Origin: Jiangella alkaliphila
Lineage (GTDB): Bacteria; Actinomycetota; Actinomycetes; Jiangellales; Jiangellaceae
DNA: 64,000 bases
Assembly: GCF_900105925.1 (NCBI RefSeq)
Contig: NZ_LT629791.1
Location: 2,143,278 to 2,207,277 of the forward strand
Direction: 5' to 3'
Part shown: positions 1-9,780 of the stretch, one piece after another
Layout of the letters: each line of letters opens with the position of its first letter
Position numbering within the stretch: the stretch's first letter is position 1
Made by a program: the position numbers and the translations under genes
Notes under the pieces: model-generated
The model's database searches: none
What the model saw: the letters and a program-made list of their open reading frames with translations, nothing else
Told to the model about the DNA's origin: nothing

Positions 1-1430
1 ATTGTATTTCCTAGCGTGGAGGCCCAGAATGTTGCCTCTTCGTCGGTGAATGAGGACCATGCTGCGCTCTCCGCCTTGCGCGGGCGGATATATTGGAGGG
101 TCCCGATAGACGCCGGTGTAATGGACCTGGTAACGATCGACCGACGGATAAAGGTGAGGACCGCACGGTTGTAGCTGCGGCGAACAAGCTGGTCCACGAA
201 ATCTTGGCGCGGGTGATCCATGTCTCTCAACATGTCGACGCCCGGTTGCCACGAGCCGGCGGCTTGGACAGTGGCAGCTGCATCTGCAAACCTGCGCTCG
301 ACGCTTCCAGCACCGAGGTTGCCTACGGCCATCCGCTTAACGATCAAGCGAAGAACCTCGGTCATTCCGACGACGGGATCTGGCGTCGATTCAATCGCTA
401 GCATAAGCGGGCGGACCGCTGCGATCCCGAGTTCATTGAGGGCAACGAAGATGCCAAGCGCCTCAGGATCGGCGGGACCATCGAAGGTCGGGTCGAGAAG
501 CTGCAGGTAGAGTGGCAGGTAAGCGTCAAGGGCTGCCATTAAATCATTGACCGTCGTGTCGGGATTGCGATCGCTGACTTGAGCGATGTGCCTATAGAGG
601 TCTTTCGGCAGTACATAGCCAGCGCTCAGGTTGACGACATGCCGAATGTACGGGACGAACCCTTGGCCGCCGCCGACCTGTTCAAATTCGCGGGCTATCG
701 CTGACCATTGCAAGTAGCGGTCCATCCTAGCCGCAGGTTCTGTGTGACGCAGGACGTAGTTCTTAAGCAGATCCGCGGTGGTCAGCTCGCGCCCACGCGT
801 GTTAACGACTTCGAACACGCTATAGGCTGTGGCTTCGTCGGGATGCTCGAAGACGGCCACGTAGAGCCTCTCACTGATGAACTCTGCCCACAGTCCAAGC
901 GTTCTGAATGTTTCCACCTCACTGCCCTGTGCGATCTGAGCGGCGAGGTACTCGTAGGCCTTCCAGAGACGCTCAGATGAAGATCTTTTCTCGAGCGATG
1001 CGGGGTCAATGCGGCCCACATCGATGATTGCCTGAAGAGTCTTGTCAGCTCGATCGTCGGTCAAGCGAATTCGAGCGACGACATCATCGGTTGTGTAATC
1101 CATCGATCGAAGGAGAGTGGCTGCGATTCTATCGGCCAGCGCCGATCGTCCAATTTCGATCGCCTTGTGGCGCAGGGCGGCGGCCAGCAATTCGACCGTG
1201 AGCAGCCGCTGTTGGCCGTCGACGACGTGTTTACGCTTCTCTTCTCCCGTTATTATGATCAGCCCTAGAAAGTACTCGTCTTCTTCGAGAGCTCCAGAGA
1301 GATCGCGCCAGAAGTCCTGAACCTCGCTGGTTTCCCAAGCGTACTCACGCTGATATGCGGGAATCTCAAATGTCGAGCCGGAGAGCAGAGCGCCGACAGT
1401 CGTGGCGGACGCGTTTAGCGGTGCAGACAT
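1..1430 (-). CDS. DUF262/GmrSD-type restriction protein, partial (runs off left edge)
   Basis: The minus strand is open from an ATG at 1428-1430 to the window edge, about 476 codons with no stop. The N-terminal DUF262 signature is clear: IPAYQREYAW at residues 23-32 and DGQQR at 71-75, followed by a segment reading FEVVNTRGRELTTADLLKN. DUF262 is the ParB-like NTP-binding half of GmrSD type IV restriction enzymes and related defence proteins. Near the edge the protein aligns with the start of a DUF1524 HNH nuclease: an LQYIRP segment, an acidic stretch, then LGNT. There the usual EH of the EHxLPQ motif reads QY (Tyr near residue 447), so the nuclease may be altered. The gene uses rare codons such as consecutive ATA and looks AT-richer than the chromosome, which suggests transfer. 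The family is secure; enzymatic activity is not. Confidence 0.85.
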   Translation of the reverse strand, partial: MSAPLNASATTVGALLSGSTFEIPAYQREYAWETSEVQDFWRDLSGALEEDEYFLGLIIITGEEKRKHVVDGQQRLLTVELLAAALRHKAIEIGRSALADRIAATLLRSMDYTTDDVVARIRLTDDRADKTLQAIIDVGRIDPASLEKRSSSERLWKAYEYLAAQIAQGSEVETFRTLGLWAEFISERLYVAVFEHPDEATAYSVFEVVNTRGRELTTADLLKNYVLRHTEPAARMDRYLQWSAIAREFEQVGGGQGFVPYIRHVVNLSAGYVLPKDLYRHIAQVSDRNPDTTVNDLMAALDAYLPLYLQLLDPTFDGPADPEALGIFVALNELGIAAVRPLMLAIESTPDPVVGMTEVLRLIVKRMAVGNLGAGSVERRFADAAATVQAAGSWQPGVDMLRDMDHPRQDFVDQLVRRSYNRAVLTFIRRSIVTRSITPASIGTLQYIRPRKAESAAWSSFTDEEATFWASTLGNT

Positions 1431-1593
1431 GAGACTCCGTTCGTGGTTGCGTCAGCGTGGGCGAGCCTTGGTTGCTGGATGCCGTGCGCGGCTCATACGT
1501 CCCTGCTAGGCAAGGGTAACGTCGATCGTTCTGTCGATGACCCAGGGGCGGCAGGTGCAGTTTGCCATAGCAGACTCGATACGAGTCCTCCCT

Positions 1594-2518
1594 TAGTGCG
1601 TGTTGGGAAAGTGGTTCGGCGTGCCTGCGTGACTGATGTGACGGACGTGGTGATTGTGGTGGTTCATGGACACGTTGTCGACACCGCGGTACCCGTCGGA
1701 CCTGACCGATGCGCAGTGGGAGTTGATCGCGCCGATGGTGCCGGTGAAGCCGGGTGGGCGTCCGGCCAAGCATGCCCGGCGCCGGATCGTGGACGCGATC
1801 TTGTACGTGAATCGGACGGGTTGTTCGTGGCGGCAGTTGCCGCACGACTTCGCGCCGTGGGACACGGTGTACTGGTACTTCAAGACCTGGAACGAGGCCG
1901 GGGTGACCGACCGGATCCACGACGCGCTGCGCGCTCAGGTTCGTGATGGGAACGGGCGTGACCCGATGGCCAGCGCAGGGATCGTGGACGCCCAGTCGGT
2001 GAAGGGCGCGGACACCGTCGGGCGCGACAGTCGGGGCTACGACGCTGGTAAGAAGGTGAACGGCCGCAAACGCCACATCGTCACCGACACCCTCGGGCTG
2101 CTCATCGTGGTGCTGGTCACCACGGCCGGCCTGCAAGACCGCGTCGGCGCCCGCCCGGTGCTGGCGCGGGCGAAGATGGCCATGCCCTCGATCGCGCTGG
2201 TCTGGGCCGATGGCGGCTACGTCGGCAAGCTGATCGCCTGGGCCCAGCAGCACTGCCGCATCCTGGTCGACATCGTGCGCAAACCCGAGGGCCGGCACAC
2301 CTTCGAAGTCCTCCCGCGCCGCTGGGTGGTCGAACGAACACTGTCCTGGCTGATGCGAACCCGACGCCTGGCACGCGACTACGAACGCCTCCCCGAACAC
2401 TCCGAAGCGATGATCAAGTGGGCGATGATCGGCCTCATGACCCGACGCCTGGCACCCGCGCCCGGACGACGCCCATGGCAACCCGCGCACCCCAGATAGC
2501 ACCTTTCCCAACACTTAC
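1594..2518 (+). mobile_element. IS5-family insertion sequence
   Basis: A single transposase gene is bracketed by inverted repeats. The perfect core GTGTTGGGAAAG at 1600-1611 is matched by its reverse complement CTTTCCCAACAC at 2503-2514. Similarity extends about five bases outward (AGTGC versus AGTAA). The exact outer ends and target duplication cannot be fixed by eye; TTA occurs next to both ends. The element sits between the divergent starts of the DUF262 gene (1430) and the defence operon (2720). Confidence 0.8.
1666..2499 (+). CDS. IS5-family DDE transposase
   Basis: A 277-residue transposase of the IS5 type, which cuts and rejoins the ends of the surrounding element. The N-terminus has the family DUF4096-like segment DLTDAQWELIAPMVP, followed by GCSWRQLPHDFAPWDTVYWYF. 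A complete DDE triad is visible: Asp108 in VDAQSVKG, Asp182 in WADGGYVG and Glu223 in RRWVVERTLSWL. Length and motifs match intact members, and no frameshift is needed, unlike some IS5 subgroups that split the gene. The ATG at 1666 is the best start because the conserved N-terminus follows immediately. An in-frame TTG at 1654 is possible. The element therefore looks recently active. Confidence 0.92.
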   Translation: MDTLSTPRYPSDLTDAQWELIAPMVPVKPGGRPAKHARRRIVDAILYVNRTGCSWRQLPHDFAPWDTVYWYFKTWNEAGVTDRIHDALRAQVRDGNGRDPMASAGIVDAQSVKGADTVGRDSRGYDAGKKVNGRKRHIVTDTLGLLIVVLVTTAGLQDRVGARPVLARAKMAMPSIALVWADGGYVGKLIAWAQQHCRILVDIVRKPEGRHTFEVLPRRWVVERTLSWLMRTRRLARDYERLPEHSEAMIKWAMIGLMTRRLAPAPGRRPWQPAHPR

Positions 2519-2719
2519 TCAGACAGTCTGTCCTAGCGCCCATCGCTCCCAGCGCTGCGGCGGTGTGGCTACGCCCAAGGCGGCTGCGAACGGAGACGGG
2601 CCAGGTGTTGGTGCGTGTCGTTACTGTCTACTTGTGAGTCGCGCCGGTCAGGATTCGGGCCAGGCGAAGTGTCCGAGGTACGCGCTATAAGGAGCCGCAT
2701 CGGAAGGAGAGGACCCAAC

Positions 2720-4927
2720 ATGACCGAGGACGCCTTGTTCGACGACATGCGTCCCAGCACCTGGCTCGACGCATTCCCGTGGCTCAAGGGCGTCGTCGGC
2801 GACGCCGACGAGACCTGGTGGATCGAACCGATGGACGACACCGATCGGGTAACCCATCGCCGGCGGCTGGCTGCCATCTCGGAACTCGCGATGGCACACC
2901 TGAGTCGCTGGACCATCAGCCAGATCCTCCCCGGTCTGCCGGCCAGCGTTGATCTTTTGCATCTGGAGCTCCCGGTTCGCGCCGCCAACGCGTTGACCCG
3001 CGAAGGCTGCCGTCGAGCCGGAGACCTGCTCGGCACCACGCTCGGCTCGATGATGGAATGGCGCCAGGTAGGCGTCGGGACGATCGACGCCATTCTTCAG
3101 GCGCTCGCCGACGTCTCAAGCTCGCTCGCAACCCCAACCGTAGTGACACAGACCGCGACCAGCACGGTGCCAAGAACGGCTGGCGAGCCAGGTCACCTCA
3201 CGGATTGGAGCTGGGATGCTCTATATGACCTCACCAAGATCGCGAGTTGGTACGCTACCGCCGGGCTCACCGATCGGCCGCTGCTGGGCGAGCCAATCGC
3301 GCCGGGCGCTCCCGACGAGGTCGTGAAGGCGCGCGAACGCCTGGAGCGGCTGCGGACCGACGACGTCGTCGACAAGGCAGGCACAGGACAGGACGCCGCA
3401 GCGCTGTTCGACGACGTCCTGGCGGGCCTCGATCCACGGGCAGCGCGCGTCCTGGCCGATCGCCTCTTTGCCGACCAGCCGGCCACTCTCGACGAGATCG
3501 GACAGGCGCTAGGCGTGACCCGTGAGCGGGTCCGCCAGATCGAGGGCAAGGCTCGCGGCGCAATGCTTAGCAACATCTCGGACGGCAGCGCCCTGAAGCT
3601 GATTGCGAGCACAGCCCGCACCCTCATCGGTACGATCCGCCCGCTCGACGAGCTCTTGGCGCTGGTCCCGGCACTCGGCAATCGAGTTGAATCGGTCGGA
3701 CAGCCTGCCTGGCGCGTCCTAGACCGGCTCGATGACGCCTACGAGATCGAGGATGGCTGGTGCGTCGTCCCCACCATGACCGCGGCACAGGCCGCGACGC
3801 AGACCCAGCTACAGGAGTGTGCCGACCCCTACGGCGTTGTGCGTCTCGACGAACTCGATCTTGTCCAGACCACTGAGCCCGACCACAAGGCGGAGCTGAC
3901 GGCCGCTTGGCTCACGTACTGCGGCTACGTTGTCGACGAAGGCCACGTGATCATGCGCACACACTCGGTGGGCGACTACGGCGCCGCGGTCCTGGCGATC
4001 GTCGGCTCGCCCCTCAGCGCTCAGGAGATCGTCGATCGCTTCATCTTCGAGCGCAGTCCTGGTTCGCTGCGCAACGCCATGAGTTCAGACGACCGCTTCG
4101 ACCGCGTCGACCGCGACCGCTGGGCCCTCAAGGAATGGGGGCTGGAGACCTACGCCGGCATCCGGTCGGTGCTCCGAGAGCAGGTAGCGCGTCGAGGAGG
4201 GCACGCTGACCTCAATGAACTGATCGAGTACATCACGGGCCAGTACAGCGTGACGGCAAGCAGCGTCATCGCGTACGCAAGCACCCCGCCGTTCTCCAGC
4301 AGCGATGGTGTTGTCCGGATGGCGGCGGGCGACCGCTCGATCCGCAAGACTCCGGAACGGACACGGCGCTTGTTCCGGCGCCCGGACGGCTGGGCTTACC
4401 GTGTCCGCATCACGCCTGATCACCTTCGGGGCAGCGGCTCGGTTGCGCCGGTCGCGATCGCTACCATCCTCGACATGCAGTTCGGCCAGACTCGCTACCT
4501 TGAGTCGCCGCTCGGTCCGCAGACCATCGCATGGTCGGGGACACAGCCGCAATTCGGCACCATCCGACGTTTCCTCATGGACCAGGACGTCGCGGTCGGT
4601 GCGGAGAGCTTCCTGGTCATGCACGACGACGCAACCTTCAGTTTCGAGGCTGCCCGCGAACTTACCGGCAACCCGCTGCTCGATGCGCTGAGCTTGGTGG
4701 GTGCGCCGATGACGGTCGATCTCGACGCGGCACGTGCCGCACTGACAGCAGCAATCAGTCTGCCCGAGGCATCGCCAGTCAGCAGCATCATCGGGGGGTA
4801 TCGCGAACGGGGCGACGGCGATATTGCGGACCTGCTAACGAGCGTTCGCCAGGACCTGGAGGCGGGACAGGTTGGCGAGCGGCCCACGCGCCGCGCCGAT
4901 GTCGACGAGATCCTGAACTTGCTATGA
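2720..4927 (+). CDS. Sigma-70 region 4 / RpoA-CTD-like multi-domain DNA-binding protein, first gene of defence operon
   Basis: A 735-residue protein starting at an ATG preceded by the strong ribosome site GGAAGGAGAGG. Residues about 84-125 resemble the alpha-subunit C-terminal helix-hairpin-helix domain (LPVRAANALTREGC, then VGVGTIDAIL). Residues about 255-275 are a sigma region 4-like helix-turn-helix (TLDEIGQALGVTRERVRQIE). Residues about 432-474 resemble a HARE-type winged helix (LSAQEIVDRF, then RFDRVDRDRWALKEWG). No -10-binding sigma region 2 is seen, so it is not an ordinary sigma factor. Its stop overlaps the helicase start by four bases (ATGA), so it is co-translated with the restriction-like genes. 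It may recognise DNA for the complex or regulate the operon; the role is inferred. Its GC content is visibly lower than that of the core genes on the right. Confidence 0.8.
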   Translation: MTEDALFDDMRPSTWLDAFPWLKGVVGDADETWWIEPMDDTDRVTHRRRLAAISELAMAHLSRWTISQILPGLPASVDLLHLELPVRAANALTREGCRRAGDLLGTTLGSMMEWRQVGVGTIDAILQALADVSSSLATPTVVTQTATSTVPRTAGEPGHLTDWSWDALYDLTKIASWYATAGLTDRPLLGEPIAPGAPDEVVKARERLERLRTDDVVDKAGTGQDAAALFDDVLAGLDPRAARVLADRLFADQPATLDEIGQALGVTRERVRQIEGKARGAMLSNISDGSALKLIASTARTLIGTIRPLDELLALVPALGNRVESVGQPAWRVLDRLDDAYEIEDGWCVVPTMTAAQAATQTQLQECADPYGVVRLDELDLVQTTEPDHKAELTAAWLTYCGYVVDEGHVIMRTHSVGDYGAAVLAIVGSPLSAQEIVDRFIFERSPGSLRNAMSSDDRFDRVDRDRWALKEWGLETYAGIRSVLREQVARRGGHADLNELIEYITGQYSVTASSVIAYASTPPFSSSDGVVRMAAGDRSIRKTPERTRRLFRRPDGWAYRVRITPDHLRGSGSVAPVAIATILDMQFGQTRYLESPLGPQTIAWSGTQPQFGTIRRFLMDQDVAVGAESFLVMHDDATFSFEAARELTGNPLLDALSLVGAPMTVDLDAARAALTAAISLPEASPVSSIIGGYRERGDGDIADLLTSVRQDLEAGQVGERPTRRADVDEILNLL

Positions 4928-7059
4928 CGGGACAACCACGCGGGCTCCGCTCGCTCGACCTGATTGACCGTTACCGGAGCGACAAGGAAGACGTGGTCGC
5001 GAGCTTCTTCGTGCCGGCCTTCACCGTCGCCACGAGCTATGGGCGAGCGGTTGGCTACTTCACGTCGACAAGCCTGGCTCTGTACGCCCGCGGCATCGAG
5101 GCTTTTGCCGAGCGGGGTGGCTCCATGCGACTGATCGCTTCTCCGCACCTCAATGAGGACGACATCGTTGACATCGAGCGTGGTTACGATCTGCGGCAGG
5201 TCATCGAGCGGGCAACAATTCGCGAGCTCGAGCAAGAGTCTCGAGAGACCGTGCTCGACGGGCTCGGTATGGTCGGCCGACTAATCGCTGAGGGCCGGTT
5301 GGACATCAAGCTGGCCTTCGTCGAGCACGAGGGCCGCGTGGGCATCTACCACGAGAAGATCGGCGTGTTCCGCGACGAGGACGGCGATCTGGTCGGTTTC
5401 ACCGGCAGCAGCAACGAGACGTATGGCGGCCTGATGGCCAACTTCGAGTCGGTGGAGATCTACCGCGGCTGGGTAGCCGGCGACGGTGCTCGGGCCCTCC
5501 GCCTTGAAGCCGACTTCCAGGCACTGTGGTCAAACCAAACGCCGAAACTCAGTATCGAGTGCTTCCCAGACCTGGCGCGCGACCGCCTGGTCAAGCTGGG
5601 CGCGGAGCGCCCGTACCGTCCCTTGCCCGGGCGAGACGACGCTCTCACTCCCGCGCCAGTAGTGCTCTCCGAGCCGAGTCGGCTTACGATCCCTGGTTGG
5701 CTGGAAGTTCGCGACTACCAGCGCAGAGCAATCGAGTCGTGGCTGCGCCACCAGGGGCGTGGCATCCTCAAGATGGCCACAGGCACCGGTAAGACGAAGA
5801 CCGCCATGATCGCCGCCGCACAGCTTGCGAACGTGCTCCGGCAGCGCGAGCAACCCATGGTCGTCCTCATTCTGGCTCCGCTCCAGCACCTCGTCGATCA
5901 GTGGATCACCGAGGTCGAGGGCTTCGGCGTTCGGCCCGTGGCGGTGTACGAATCGAGCCAGAAATGGCAGCCGGTCGTGGAAGAGCAGTTGGTCGAGGCG
6001 CGGTTGGGCCAGCGGCCAGTTGTTGCCATCGTCGCCACCAACACCTCGTTCGCGGGTGAGAAGTTCCAGTCAGTGCTGTCGCGGATCACCCAGCCCCTGC
6101 TGATCATCGCTGACGAAGCACACAACCTCGGTTCGTCAAGGTATCGAGCGTCTCTCCCCCCGAACGCCACCTACCGGCTGGCATTGTCCGCAACCCCCGA
6201 GCGCTGGTTCGACGATGAGGGCACCGATGCGCTGATCGACTACTTCGGCCCGATCGTGTTCGAACTCGGTCTTGGCGACGCCATCCGGATTGGCGCGCTC
6301 ACGCGCTACCTGTACGTCCCGCGGCTTGTCGAGCTCAACGATGACGAGACCAACCTCTACGTCGCCCTGACGGCCCAGATCGCGACGCGGATTGCAGCTG
6401 GTGATGAGCTCGGGAATGCCGATCCAACCTCACCTTTGGGCTTCCTGCTGCGCCAGCGGGCGGGCGTGCTCGGGCACGCCGAAGGAAAGTTCGCCGCATT
6501 GCGGGGGGACCTCAGCGTCCGTAGCGATTCCTGGTTCCAACTGATCTACTGCGCCGAAGGCAACCGACCGACGGAGCCGGGCGAGCCATCAGGACCGAAC
6601 CAGCTCAGAGACGTCATGGACCTGGTCGGCAATCAGTTGCACCTCTCCGCCCATTCCTACATCTCCGAAACCCCGCGGGCAGAGCGGAAGGTGCTGCTTC
6701 GCCGCTTCGGCACAGGCAACGACCTGCGGGTGCTCGTGGCGATGCGCTGCTTGGACGAGGGCGTGGACATCCCGGATGCGCGGACCGGTTATCTGTTGGC
6801 CAGCAGCAGCAACCCGCGGCAGTTCATCCAGCGACGAGGTCGGCTCCTGCGGCGGGCCGAAGGCAAGGAGCGCGCTGAGATCTTGGACTACGTGGCGGTG
6901 CCGCCCTCGGGGGCTCCGATCAACTTCGACGTCGAACGCGCCCTGCTCACCCGAGAGCTTCAGAGGACCAACGAGTTCGGCAAATTAGCAGAGAACTACG
7001 AAACGACGCTTGATGCGCTGCGCCCGCTAAAGGAGCGCTACCAGCTCATGGACATGTAA
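4924..7059 (+). CDS. PLD-nuclease/SF2 helicase fusion, phosphorothioation-restriction-like
   Basis: A 711-residue protein. The N-terminal part carries a phospholipase D-type nuclease motif, HEKIGVF at residue 143 followed by FTGSSNET, as in PLD-family restriction nucleases. The C-terminal two thirds is an SF2 helicase: Walker A ATGTGKT near residue 284, DEAH at about 397, SATPE, and motif VI QRRGRLLRR. The organisation matches the family named DNA phosphorothioation system restriction enzyme, normally found beside dndABCDE. The likely role is ATP-driven DNA tracking with cleavage of foreign DNA. It overlaps the upstream gene by four bases and lies 32 bases before the next one. The domain calls are firm; the link to phosphorothioate sensing is inference, because no modification genes are visible. 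Confidence 0.85.
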   Translation: MTGQPRGLRSLDLIDRYRSDKEDVVASFFVPAFTVATSYGRAVGYFTSTSLALYARGIEAFAERGGSMRLIASPHLNEDDIVDIERGYDLRQVIERATIRELEQESRETVLDGLGMVGRLIAEGRLDIKLAFVEHEGRVGIYHEKIGVFRDEDGDLVGFTGSSNETYGGLMANFESVEIYRGWVAGDGARALRLEADFQALWSNQTPKLSIECFPDLARDRLVKLGAERPYRPLPGRDDALTPAPVVLSEPSRLTIPGWLEVRDYQRRAIESWLRHQGRGILKMATGTGKTKTAMIAAAQLANVLRQREQPMVVLILAPLQHLVDQWITEVEGFGVRPVAVYESSQKWQPVVEEQLVEARLGQRPVVAIVATNTSFAGEKFQSVLSRITQPLLIIADEAHNLGSSRYRASLPPNATYRLALSATPERWFDDEGTDALIDYFGPIVFELGLGDAIRIGALTRYLYVPRLVELNDDETNLYVALTAQIATRIAAGDELGNADPTSPLGFLLRQRAGVLGHAEGKFAALRGDLSVRSDSWFQLIYCAEGNRPTEPGEPSGPNQLRDVMDLVGNQLHLSAHSYISETPRAERKVLLRRFGTGNDLRVLVAMRCLDEGVDIPDARTGYLLASSSNPRQFIQRRGRLLRRAEGKERAEILDYVAVPPSGAPINFDVERALLTRELQRTNEFGKLAENYETTLDALRPLKERYQLMDM

Positions 7060-7091
7060 GAACGAATAACGCACGTCAAGGGGAGGGCGGC

Positions 7092-7256
7092 ATGGTCACT
7101 GCGGGACGGACCGAGAAGCAGGTGCTTGAAGAGTTGAGCGACGAAGAGCGCGCACTTCTCAAGCGTGTGCTGGAAATCGAACGAGGCAAGCTCCATCTGA
7201 CCGCCTATGACGCCACCGAAGACCTGCTGGCGGCGGTGAAGGAGATCATCCCGTGA
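7092..7256 (+). CDS. 54-residue acidic helical protein in defence operon
   Basis: A short gene with a ribosome site (GGGAGGGCGG) just upstream of its ATG. Its stop overlaps the GTG start of the next gene by four bases, which strongly argues that it is real. The product begins MVTAGRTEKQVLEELSD and looks fully helical and charged, with an EERALLKRVLEIERGK amphipathic stretch. There are no cysteines and no membrane segment. I do not recognise a family. Its position between nuclease-helicase and SMC ATPase suggests a small adaptor or inhibitor of the complex. That role is inference only. Confidence 0.75.
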   Translation: MVTAGRTEKQVLEELSDEERALLKRVLEIERGKLHLTAYDATEDLLAAVKEIIP

Positions 7257-9310
7257 AGCTACAGTCCATCACGCTGACCAACTTCCGCCAGTTCCAGGGC
7301 GCCCAGTCGTTCGACTTGACCTCGGACGAGTTCAAGGCGGTCTCGCTCTTGTTTGGCGCGAACGGAGCCGGCAAGACCACTTTCCTGAACGCCTTCACGT
7401 GGGCGCTCTACGGCACGATGTCAGACGACGTTGAGCAGCAGGACCGCATGATCACCGACAGCGTCTGGCGAGCTCTGCCGATGGGCAACACCGCCGACGT
7501 TGCCGTCGACGTGCGCTTCGACCATGAGGGTAGGGATTACCGCCTCCTGCGGAGCGCAATCCTGCGCAAGGAATCCGACCAGCAGGGCGTCCCATCACCC
7601 GAGGTCCAATTGTGGATGACCAAGCCGGACGGCTCGTCGGAGATCGTCGGCGCGCCGCAGGAGACGATTTACAGCATCCTGCCGCGCGGGGTCAGCCGGT
7701 TCTTCTTCTTCAACGGGGAGCGCATCGAGAACCTGGTCAAGAAGGGTGCCTACGCCGAAGTTCAGAAGGACATCAAGGTGCTGCTCGACCTCGAGCAGGT
7801 GGAGCGCGCTATCGCTCACCTCCCCAAGGCCGACCGCAAGCTGACCGCCGAGCTGAAGAAGCACGGCGGCGCCAAGGCCAGCGAGATCCAAGAGGCGATC
7901 GACGTCCTGACCGAGCGGCAGATCGCGGCACGGGAAGAGCAAAAGCTACTCGAAGGCGACCTGGCAACCCTTATCGAGGAGCGTGATGGCGTCACGGAGC
8001 TCCTCCGCAAGGACGCTGAGGCGGCTCCAATCCAGGCCGAGCGCGACGCAGTGACGAATGAGTTGACTGAAGCGCGGGCTGCGCTCAAAGGCGCCATCTC
8101 TGAGCGTGGCCTGCTGGTTGCGACCCGCGGCTTCCAGGCGTTTACCGACACCCTCGGCCAGGCGACCGAGGCGATGGCGGAAGGTCTCTACCAGAAGGGA
8201 GCGCTGCCTGCGCCGCTCAAGCGCGAGTTCGTCGACCAACTGCTGGAGGACGGCTCGTGTATCTGTGGCACACCGTTAGCCGAGCACAGCGCACCACGAG
8301 AGCATGTCCAGGATTGGCGCCAACGGGCCGGGCTGCAGGCGGTCGAGACCGCGTGGCAACGGCTCCGTGGTCAAATCGCGCCCCTGTCCGGCGCCCGCGA
8401 CGAGCTGCGCGAGTCGTTGGCCACGCTCATGAAGCGGATCGGCGCCGAGCGCGACCGCGTTGCGCGGCTAGAAGAGCGGAAGTCCGAGCTCGACGGCAAG
8501 TTGCGGGACAGCCGTATGGAGGACGTCCAAGCACTTGAGACCAAACGCATGGATCTGGAGAACCGGATCAGCGCCAAGGACCAGCGGAAGGGCGCGATCG
8601 AGTCCGAGTTGAAGAACATCGCCAAGGAGATCGAGCAGAAGACCAAGGAGCGTTCAAGGGCCGAGGTAACCGACGAATTGGCTGCCAAAGCGCGATCTCG
8701 CTCCGACCTTGTGCAGTCCGTGAAGCGGGCGCTAGAGGAGATACTCGCGATCCGCGAGGAGGACATGCGCAAGCGCCTTGACGCTGAGCTCAAGGCCGTG
8801 TTCCGCAGCATCACGCACCAGAACCACGTGCCGACGCTCAGCACCGGCTTCGAGCTGACGCTCCACAAGAACGTCAACGGCGTCGAACTGCCCGTGCCGA
8901 AGTCGACGGGCGAAAACCAGATTCTGAGTCTGAGCTTCGTAGCGGCCGTATCCAAGCTCGCCCGCGAGATCCGGAAGGAGCGTCGGGCGGAGGGTGACTC
9001 AGCCGAGGACGCCGGCACCTATCCCATCGTCATGGATGCCGCCTTTGGGTCGCTCGACCAGGACTACCAGGAGGCCGTCTCACGGGCGTTGGCGAAGATG
9101 GCGCCTCAGCTGGTGGTCCTGGTCAGCAAGAGTCAGGGCCTGGGCAAGGTCGTGACCGAGCTGATGCCCTTTGTCAGTCACCTCGGTGTCATCGAGACTC
9201 ATACGACCGCACCGGGAAGCGTGGCCGACGACATCGAGCTCGAGGGCAGGTCCTACCCGTACATCCGGTCCGCCGAGTCGGACCACTCCGAGTTGAAGGT
9301 GATCAAGTGA
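7253..9310 (+). CDS. DndD-like SMC/RecF-type ATPase
   Basis: A 685-residue ATPase starting at a GTG that overlaps the preceding stop. Walker A is GANGAGKT at residues 35-42. A phenylalanine-rich FFFFNGERIENL segment typical of DndD-like proteins follows. A long coiled-coil region has a central C336-x-C338 turn in place of a full CxxC zinc hook. The C-terminus holds the signature-like STGENQILSLSF and a Walker B/D-loop VMDAAFGSLD near residue 595. DndD in sulfur-modification systems and SMC-like ATPases in other defence systems couple ATP hydrolysis to DNA recognition. Here it is flanked by a PLD helicase and a Dnd-associated-like protein, so participation in a restriction complex is likely. 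Whether it nicks DNA or only senses it cannot be told from sequence. Confidence 0.85.
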   Translation: MKLQSITLTNFRQFQGAQSFDLTSDEFKAVSLLFGANGAGKTTFLNAFTWALYGTMSDDVEQQDRMITDSVWRALPMGNTADVAVDVRFDHEGRDYRLLRSAILRKESDQQGVPSPEVQLWMTKPDGSSEIVGAPQETIYSILPRGVSRFFFFNGERIENLVKKGAYAEVQKDIKVLLDLEQVERAIAHLPKADRKLTAELKKHGGAKASEIQEAIDVLTERQIAAREEQKLLEGDLATLIEERDGVTELLRKDAEAAPIQAERDAVTNELTEARAALKGAISERGLLVATRGFQAFTDTLGQATEAMAEGLYQKGALPAPLKREFVDQLLEDGSCICGTPLAEHSAPREHVQDWRQRAGLQAVETAWQRLRGQIAPLSGARDELRESLATLMKRIGAERDRVARLEERKSELDGKLRDSRMEDVQALETKRMDLENRISAKDQRKGAIESELKNIAKEIEQKTKERSRAEVTDELAAKARSRSDLVQSVKRALEEILAIREEDMRKRLDAELKAVFRSITHQNHVPTLSTGFELTLHKNVNGVELPVPKSTGENQILSLSFVAAVSKLAREIRKERRAEGDSAEDAGTYPIVMDAAFGSLDQDYQEAVSRALAKMAPQLVVLVSKSQGLGKVVTELMPFVSHLGVIETHTTAPGSVADDIELEGRSYPYIRSAESDHSELKVIK

Positions 9311-9780
9311 CCATCCCAGCAGACCTCCGCACTATTCGGCGTCCGCAGCAGCACGAGGCGCTCATGGTGGAGCTCCAGGAGGATGCACACTTCCCCACCT
9401 TCCGCGACGTCCTCCTGTTCGCAGCCGCCGTAGGGTTCCGTCACGATCGCCGCGTGCCGTTCACTACTGGAGTCGGTGATGCGATCCGCTACGACACCCT
9501 TACGGCGCCGCCCTTCAGCGAAGCTTTGATAAATATGATCGCGGCGAATGTCGTCCCAGACGACCCGGAGGTCATGGACTCGACTCGCGTAGAGGAACGG
9601 ATCAACATCTTCGGGGAGTACGCCAACGGTGGCCTGGAATACATTCAGGAGCAGGTCAATGTCCGCCACCAGCCGGCGGCGCTGGCGATCATAGACCTTG
9701 TCGCAGAGGCATTCACCACCGATGGTGGTGCTAAGCCAGCATCGGTTGACGAGTTGCTCGACGGCGTGAGCTGGCGTTGA
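9307..9780 (+). CDS. Dnd-associated protein 4-like small protein
   Basis: A 157-residue protein whose GTG start overlaps the ATPase stop by four bases. It begins with IRRPQQHEALMVEL and contains FRDVLLFAAAVGFRHDRRVPF, followed by an acidic C-terminal half. This pattern resembles the small family annotated as dnd system-associated protein 4, which occurs in phosphorothioation loci; I recall the resemblance and could not check it. No catalytic motif is visible, so it is probably structural or regulatory. It is the last well-supported gene of the operon. The overlap with its neighbour implies fixed stoichiometry with the SMC ATPase. Confidence 0.65.
   Translation: MTIPADLRTIRRPQQHEALMVELQEDAHFPTFRDVLLFAAAVGFRHDRRVPFTTGVGDAIRYDTLTAPPFSEALINMIAANVVPDDPEVMDSTRVEERINIFGEYANGGLEYIQEQVNVRHQPAALAIIDLVAEAFTTDGGAKPASVDELLDGVSWR

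Follow-up and report, generated by a model that had tools for sequence, protein, structure and literature searches.

A five-gene operon in a 64 000-nucleotide stretch of the Jiangella alkaliphila chromosome (the window; G000:C1:2143278-2207277, within a one-contig genome of 7.7 Mb) is best explained overall as the effector half of a Dnd-Pbe locus, with its first gene (gene 1) as the proposed reader of DNA; we hold this explanation with considerable confidence. Judging from sequence and gene order, genes 2 to 5 match the published PbeABCD, and the locus as a whole is almost certainly a DndABCDE-PbeABCD phosphorothioation (PT) defence locus. The Dnd-Pbe system is already known. An earlier note, made from the letters of the window alone, had described the operon as an orphan without modification genes; that impression was created by the window edge, the genes dndA-dndE being located just outside it, at about -8991 to -2627 (negative values are approximate window coordinates left of window position 1).

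Marking genes left of the window

A genome search identified PAPS-reductase-like proteins at three places, including one situated 6.4 kb to the left of the window. The genes dndA, dndB, dndC, dndD and dndE are all found within 9 kb of the window edge, and each scores above its NCBIfam equivalog cut-off: dndA with 495.8 bits (cut-off 480), dndB with 495.4 (328), dndC with 662.1 (290.4), dndD with 575.4 (245.85) and dndE with 115.1 (71.85). They are followed by the gene for a DNA phosphorothioation-associated putative methyltransferase (dnd_rel_methyl, TIGR04096; 614.3 bits, cut-off 150), which in Pfam gives a weak match to Methyltransf_23 (19.9 bits, below cut-off). The frames of all six genes are without inner stops. 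The five Dnd proteins also match PADLOC models; for dndA, the SspA model (438) scores slightly higher than the DndA model (422). The motifs GSACTS and SGHK are kept in DndA, and SGGKDS in DndC; we take the former two to represent the catalytic cysteine and the pyridoxal phosphate lysine, and the latter the P-loop.

The marking half is located 5-12 kb upstream of the effector operon on the same chromosome, with about 5.3 kb between dndE and gene 1. Since dndABCDE is present left of the window, the operon is no orphan: the window edge split it from its partner. The earlier note had allowed for this by proposing, as one of two alternatives, that the modification genes lie to the left; inspection of the flanking contig revealed intact dndABCE there. 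For dndF and dndH (TIGR03237 and TIGR03238), no match was found in this genome, and 14 control genomes were equally silent.

Effector genes

The five genes reported in the earlier note at 2720-9780 are confirmed as open reading frames (ORFs) on one strand (table 1). Its description of them is correct. Three of the four junctions are start/stop overlaps of 4 nucleotides (4924-4927, 7253-7256 and 9307-9310), and genes 2 and 3 are separated by a gap of 32 nucleotides. The ATG of gene 1 is at 2720; a longer frame, from a GTG at 2615, is likewise open.

A check against the PADLOC defence models gave strong matches for PbeA and PbeC. Gene 2 scores 839.2 bits with the PbeA model. It matches the Pfam families ResIII (76.4 bits) and Helicase_C (43.9 bits), both above cut-off, and also DEAD; the match to PLDc_2 (25.2 bits) is just below the cut-off of 27, and that to TIGR04095 dnd_restrict_1 (545.2 bits) is below the cut-off of 600. 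The protein carries the motifs HEK at 143, DEAH at 397 and QRRGR at 636. The strict pattern HxK(x4)D was not found in PbeA, the single HxK being that at 143. Gene 4 scores 886 bits with the PbeC model and 132.3 bits with the best DndD model; it matches AAA_23 in Pfam and has a Walker A motif at 35, CIC at 336 and IVMDA at 592. The CxC motif is present in PbeC and absent from the DndD of the same locus. The domain calls of the earlier note for genes 2 and 4 are borne out by these scores, and its Dnd-associated assignment for gene 5 agrees with a family match just below cut-off.

Genome contigs were scanned for PbeA, and the best 80 of 129 confirmed stretches yielded 78 distinct loci. These were divided by PbeA identity into a close group (27 loci, at least 67%), a middle group (20 loci, 46-55%) and a far group (31 loci, below 46%). 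The 54-amino-acid ORF has a tblastn match in 30 of the 78 loci; the gene set is conserved beyond chance, this ORF and gene 1 each being matched in 26 of the 27 close loci. By its position and conservation between pbeA and pbeC, the 54-amino-acid protein is identified as PbeB. The place of pbeD after pbeC is kept in relatives, and the size of its product fits that of PbeD, about 150 amino acids; PbeD has no PADLOC match.

Domains and predicted folds of gene 1

Gene 1 matches the Pfam families Sigma70_r4 (47.8 bits) and RNA_pol_A_CTD (29.1 bits), which are found in 30 and 25, respectively, of 30 aligned gene-1 members. There is no match to sigma region 2 in the 30 members at E 0.01 (seven families listed), and region 3 is matched in two of them. 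A full sigma factor is ruled out by the lack of region 2. The protein was also compared with MzaA of the MZA system and rejected as a member, the sigma-like stretch alone giving a match (38.9 bits against a cut-off of 800; 18.7 bits in PADLOC).

The AlphaFold model of gene 1 has a predicted local distance difference test score (pLDDT) of 82.7 and a predicted template-modelling score (pTM) of 0.42, a value at which the arrangement of the domains is uncertain. The strongest structural rows are those of sigma region 4, at about residues 223-298 (Z 9-10.7). A winged helix at 413-472 gives rows at Z 8.3-8.9, for example Z-alpha domains, and further helix-strand units, read from secondary structure alone, are probably winged helices too. 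A beta domain at 551-645 matches LlaJI.R1 (Z 8.0, 86 residues) and plant B3 domains.

Residues 540-650 were also folded separately from 30 sequences, with a pLDDT of 90.9 and a pTM of 0.83. In Foldseek, rows 1-27 are all plant B3 entries or LlaJI.R1, 26 of them at a probability of at least 0.95. In the VIA comparison there are 24 B3-type entries at Z 6.1-8.2, and the first unrelated row is at Z 4.0; EcoRII-N (3hqf) has Z 7.1 (root-mean-square deviation 3.1, 98 aligned), LlaJI.R1 (6c5d) Z 7.2 (3.2, 91) and BfiI-C (3zi5) Z 6.2 (3.3, 96), values to be read with the caution that Z below 8 can reflect mere arrangement. The segment is thus predicted to adopt a B3-like fold, as used by EcoRII and BfiI to read DNA.

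Conservation of gene 1 and its wider family

All but one of the close loci (26 of 27) have gene 1 immediately before pbeA. The exception, L031, is a contig that begins within pbeA, and in L011, L014 and L025 gene 1 is truncated by the start of the contig. The junction with pbeA is an estimated 4-nucleotide overlap in 20 of the 26 loci and within 10 nucleotides in the remaining six. A profile built from the window and 23 close loci (E < 1e-5) shows that pbeA is preceded by a partial homologue in 17 of the 20 middle-group and six of the 31 far-group loci, L047 and L052 being the weakest. No description of a sigma/B3-type gene with Pbe was found in a literature search that left most subscription papers, figures and supplements outside, and the corresponding terms do not occur in PMC3702460. 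The fifth conserved gene is apparently undescribed for Pbe, so the locus is probably a variant of the known Dnd-Pbe system.

Among 296 genomes of the class, 38 contain a match to the C-terminal half of gene 1. A strong PbeA match (more than 270 bits) is present in five genomes of this sample: it is beside gene 1 in the genome studied here and in G195, beside a weak gene-1 match in G203 and not directly beside the gene-1 match in G124; G156 has PbeA and no gene-1 match. Several genomes (e.g. G037, G074, G104, G162, G171 and G258) carry a second, partial gene-1 match a few kilobases from the first.

The neighbours of these relatives are varied. In L125 a gene-1 relative adjoins a GmrSD gene, and at L128:8023-13683 (minus strand), from another genome of the class, two gene-1-like proteins flank a gene for a UvrD-type helicase. 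At L130:6898-10046 (plus strand) a gene for a nuclease of the Pfam family REase-ARP is followed, with a 4-nucleotide overlap, by a gene-1-like protein; the 'ARP' of this label may denote the gene-1 family. The literature search, mostly without subscription papers, returned no paper on REase-ARP. A DUF6319 gene is beside the relative in L126, and a gene of similar look in L127. No recognised partner was seen beside the relatives in L129, L131 and L132, and no single partner is common to the contexts examined. This distribution suggests that the gene-1 family may serve several conflict systems as a reusable, general partner for reading DNA, the Pbe-linked form being one of them.

Co-divergence of gene 1 with marking enzymes and effectors

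A gene 1 that connects mark and effector would be expected to diverge together with both. Partial rank Mantel tests were conducted with 17 loci, the window and 16 of the 27 close loci; a locus was kept if all five proteins reached at least 85% of the query length, and 11 were left out because of truncation or a missing dndC. The gyrB gene, with frames chosen by BLAST, was the control for host lineage. With permutation p-values that treat related sequences as exchangeable and are uncorrected for the number of tests, gene 1 tracks DndC given PbeA and gyrB (r 0.588, p 0.0028) and PbeA given DndC and gyrB (r 0.571, p 0.0022). The association with DndC is also seen given PbeA, PbeC, PbeD and gyrB (0.515, p 0.005).

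Given gyrB, the values against DndC are r 0.233 (p 0.12) for PbeA, 0.207 (p 0.11) for PbeC, which becomes 0.043 when PbeA is also given, and 0.439 (p 0.008) for PbeD. The low coupling of PbeA and PbeC with DndC agrees with the rho of 0.107 for PbeAC and DndCD in the accessible text of PMC6459918. Parts of gene 1 were compared with DndC in a set of 13 loci: the value is 0.68 for sigma region 4, 0.59 for the alpha-CTD-like part (CTD, C-terminal domain) and 0.50 for residues 291-412. These patterns speak for a connection of gene 1 with the marking module, and do not point specifically to a B3-encoded motif.

Gene content, neighbouring genes and distribution

The features of the locus are reported in table 1.

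Table 1. Features of the J. alkaliphila Dnd-Pbe locus in window coordinates (aa, amino acids).
Feature	Coordinates	Strand	Description
dndA	about -8991 to -7798	-	
dndB	about -7677 to -6526		
dndC	about -6529 to -4994		
dndD	about -4997 to -3024		
dndE	about -3019 to -2627		
dnd_rel_methyl	about -2624 to -1173		DNA phosphorothioation-associated putative methyltransferase
PIN_8 protein	about -1072 to -134 (L006:8206-9144)	-	
GmrSD_N-domain protein	1..1430, extends left of window to about -189	-	539 aa; start codon 1430; neighbour
IS5-family insertion sequence	1592..2522	+	transposase 1654-2499; between GmrSD_N gene and gene 1
gene 1	2720..4927	+	735 aa; alpha-CTD-like / sigma region 4 / winged-helix / B3-like; candidate DNA-reading subunit
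pbeA (gene 2)	4924..7059	+	711 aa; PLD-family nuclease domain + SF2 helicase
pbeB (gene 3)	7092..7256	+	54 aa; small protein
pbeC (gene 4)	7253..9310	+	685 aa; DndD-like ABC ATPase, CxC motif
pbeD (gene 5)	9307..9780	+	157 aa; DNA phosphorothioation-associated protein 4-like

Between the dnd and pbe genes, the GmrSD_N and PIN_8 genes lie on the opposite strand with an end-to-start overlap, and possibly constitute a second small defence unit. The GmrSD_N protein scores 112.8 bits with Pfam GmrSD_N, and 255.7 and 190.6 bits with the PADLOC models HEC-06 and Orf5, respectively. The insertion sequence (IS) lies where the GmrSD_N gene and the pbe operon diverge, and ends about 200 nucleotides before the start of gene 1. 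Its transposase scores 231.2 bits with NF033580 (cut-off 110), and its inverted arms (1592-1611 and 2503-2522) are 85% complementary. The element is outside the defence system and may alter expression of the pbe operon.

Judged by tblastn thresholds, at least 24 of the 27 close, at least 18 of the 20 middle and at least nine of the 31 far loci have a dnd gene within reach, counts that are lower bounds, many contigs being short. There are 27 loci among the 78, mostly divergent, with no dnd gene in reach by these thresholds. In the class-wide sample, dndC scores above cut-off in four of 296 genomes and has any match in seven; none of the 21 further genomes of the same genus and family is among the seven (20 of the 21 are listed as matchless). 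In G195, from another family of the class, PbeA is 82% identical. The rarity of dndC in the genus and family, together with the PbeA of G195, points to horizontal acquisition of the Dnd-Pbe locus.

Three loci (L017, L028 and L032) carry close pbe relatives beside a clearly different dnd type (DndC 63-67% and DndD 36-39% identical), which suggests that the effector module switches marking partners. In L031, a contig binned as Mesorhizobium, PbeA is 84% identical (residues 243-711) and PbeC 88%; this match reflects either recent transfer or a binning error.

Proposed working and alternative explanations

In Dnd systems, sulfur supplied by DndA is inserted into the DNA backbone by DndC, together with DndD and DndE, at a short motif, and DndB has a repressing or tuning role. 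We propose that in J. alkaliphila dndABCDE would be the marking half of a PT defence locus, and pbeABCD together with the conserved fifth gene the effector half. PbeABCD would block replication of incoming unmarked DNA in a PT-dependent manner, as in the haloarchaeal system (PMC6459918, accessible text). Gene 1, with its DNA-binding modules and predicted B3-like domain, would belong to the Pbe effector and tell it which DNA to engage, by a motif or by distinguishing marked from unmarked sites; PbeA, with its PLD and SF2 helicase parts, and PbeC/PbeD would then act on the DNA so chosen.

That gene 1 serves the Pbe effector as the subunit that reads the target or the mark is a tentative proposal, based on sequence comparison and structural models, to which we give somewhat less than an even chance. 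The more general statement, that actinobacterial Pbe are five-gene systems in which gene 1 links PT marking to the PLD-helicase effector by recognising a motif or the sulfur state, is slightly more doubtful. Gene 1 is nevertheless a testable candidate for how PbeABCD tells PT-marked from unmarked DNA; if the proposal is true, gene 1 would fill the missing role of discrimination subunit, which PMC6459918 assigns to none of the Pbe proteins, and annotation models for Pbe would have to include a fifth component.

Several observations weigh against these assignments. PbeB has no match above cut-off in any family model scanned (PADLOC, Pfam and NCBIfam), and gene 5 scores 72.5 bits with TIGR04062 dnd_assoc_4, just below the cut-off of 74.25. 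The dnd and pbe genes are separated by a gap of about 5.3 kb containing the methyltransferase-like, PIN and GmrSD_N genes and the IS, whereas the archaeal cassette is contiguous. The best Foldseek match to a B3 entry has E 0.0056, with none at E 0.001 or better. Among the 13 loci, the B3-like part of gene 1 gives 0.32 against DndC (p 0.07) and residues 415-535 give 0.14 (p 0.21); with tracking this weak, the B3 domain is not the favoured candidate for the motif-specific part. PbeD tracks DndC in the 17 loci even given PbeA and gyrB (r 0.391, p 0.014), so gene 1 is not unique in this respect; the PbeD association is not seen in the 13-locus set. Finally, relatives of gene 1 are commoner than PbeA, and the gene-1 family is thus not Pbe-specific.

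Alternatively, gene 1 could regulate transcription of the pbe operon and play no role in the choice of targets. It stands first in the operon, its Sigma70_r4 and RNA_pol_A_CTD modules (30/30 and 25/30 members) are of kinds that bind promoter DNA or RNA polymerase, and sigma region 4 provides the top structural rows. However, we regard this role as rather unlikely: the protein falls short of a complete sigma factor, a simple autoregulator would be expected neither to carry a B3-like domain nor to co-diverge with DndC, and relatives of gene 1 adjoin GmrSD, UvrD-type helicase and REase-ARP genes. The locus could also be complete but silent or decaying, the IS before gene 1 having severed the promoter. 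This is improbable; the IS5-family element stops close to gene 1, but all listed frames are open, some 200 nucleotides of upstream sequence are left, and an IS may also bring a promoter.

It is likewise improbable that Pbe is paired, in place of PT or in addition to it, with methylation of bases by the dnd_rel_methyl protein. The TIGR04096 gene is situated between dndE and pbe here and near pbe in many relatives, and candidate base-modifying genes are reported near 155 of 320 solitary PbeAC (PMC6459918, accessible text). Against this, dndABCDE is complete, the Methyltransf_23 match is weak and below cut-off, and PT alone protected the virus in the archaeal system, according to the same paper. 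The second alternative of the earlier note, a stand-alone system reading something other than phosphorothioate, is highly improbable. Such an arrangement would have parallels in the published solitary pbeAC (PMC6459918, accessible text) and in the 27 of 78 PbeA loci without dnd in reach. Here, however, dndABCDE share the locus.

Comparison with known systems

The J. alkaliphila operon, read as the effector half of a Dnd-Pbe locus, can be compared with the DndCDEA-PbeABCD system of H. jeotgali A29, a strain that we take to belong to the genus Haloterrigena. The name pbeABCD was introduced by Xiong 2019 for genes that exclude a haloarchaeal virus in a PT-dependent manner; cleavage was not detected, as far as the accessible text goes, and 320 of 553 occurrences of pbeAC are solitary (PMC6459918). 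Both systems have a PbeA with PLD, ResIII and helicase domains, a small PbeB, an AAA_23 PbeC, a PbeD or PbeD-like protein of about 150 amino acids, and dndC, dndD, dndE and dndA nearby. The J. alkaliphila locus additionally contains dndB, the dnd_rel_methyl gene and about 5.3 kb between the modules, and a 735-amino-acid gene heads its pbe operon, whereas the accessible text of PMC6459918 defines four pbe genes.

The same genes have been described as the CxC ABC ATPase-DndE system, which was found in 936 bacterial taxa as a tandem with canonical Dnd, and cleavage by the HKD domain has been argued for (PMC10853773, accessible text). The likeness includes an HKD endonuclease-SF2 helicase, a small protein, a CxC-type ABC ATPase and a putative DndE cognate, the frequent tandem with canonical Dnd, and PIN genes at the boundaries. 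As a difference, the accessible text mentions neither GmrSD nor, within the operon, a gene of the sigma/alpha-CTD/B3 type; the word 'sigma' is used a single time, of DndH. The claimed kinship of PbeD with DndE was not reproduced by a comparison of their profiles (50 and 44 rows) with hhalign, which gave a probability of 0.2% and E 0.36.

Like gene 1, PglW of BREX has an RNA-polymerase alpha CTD-like domain followed by several winged-helix modules (PMC12839542, accessible text); PglW differs in having a kinase, for which gene 1 gives no match, and sigma region 4 and the B3-like domain are features of gene 1. B3-like domains are the recognition domains of the PLD-family restriction enzymes BfiI, CglI and NgoAVII (PMC4267653, accessible text). 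Membership in the CglI/NgoAVII group was considered and rejected, a fused B3-PLD protein not being present in the operon; the relation is one of analogy. In CglI and NgoAVII, as proposed here, a PLD nuclease domain, a B3-like recognition domain and an SF2 helicase cooperate, but the fusions differ: CglI and NgoAVII join the B3 domain to the PLD nuclease and have a separate SF2 ATPase (PMC4267653, accessible text), whereas PbeA of J. alkaliphila combines PLD with SF2 and the predicted B3-like domain is carried by gene 1.

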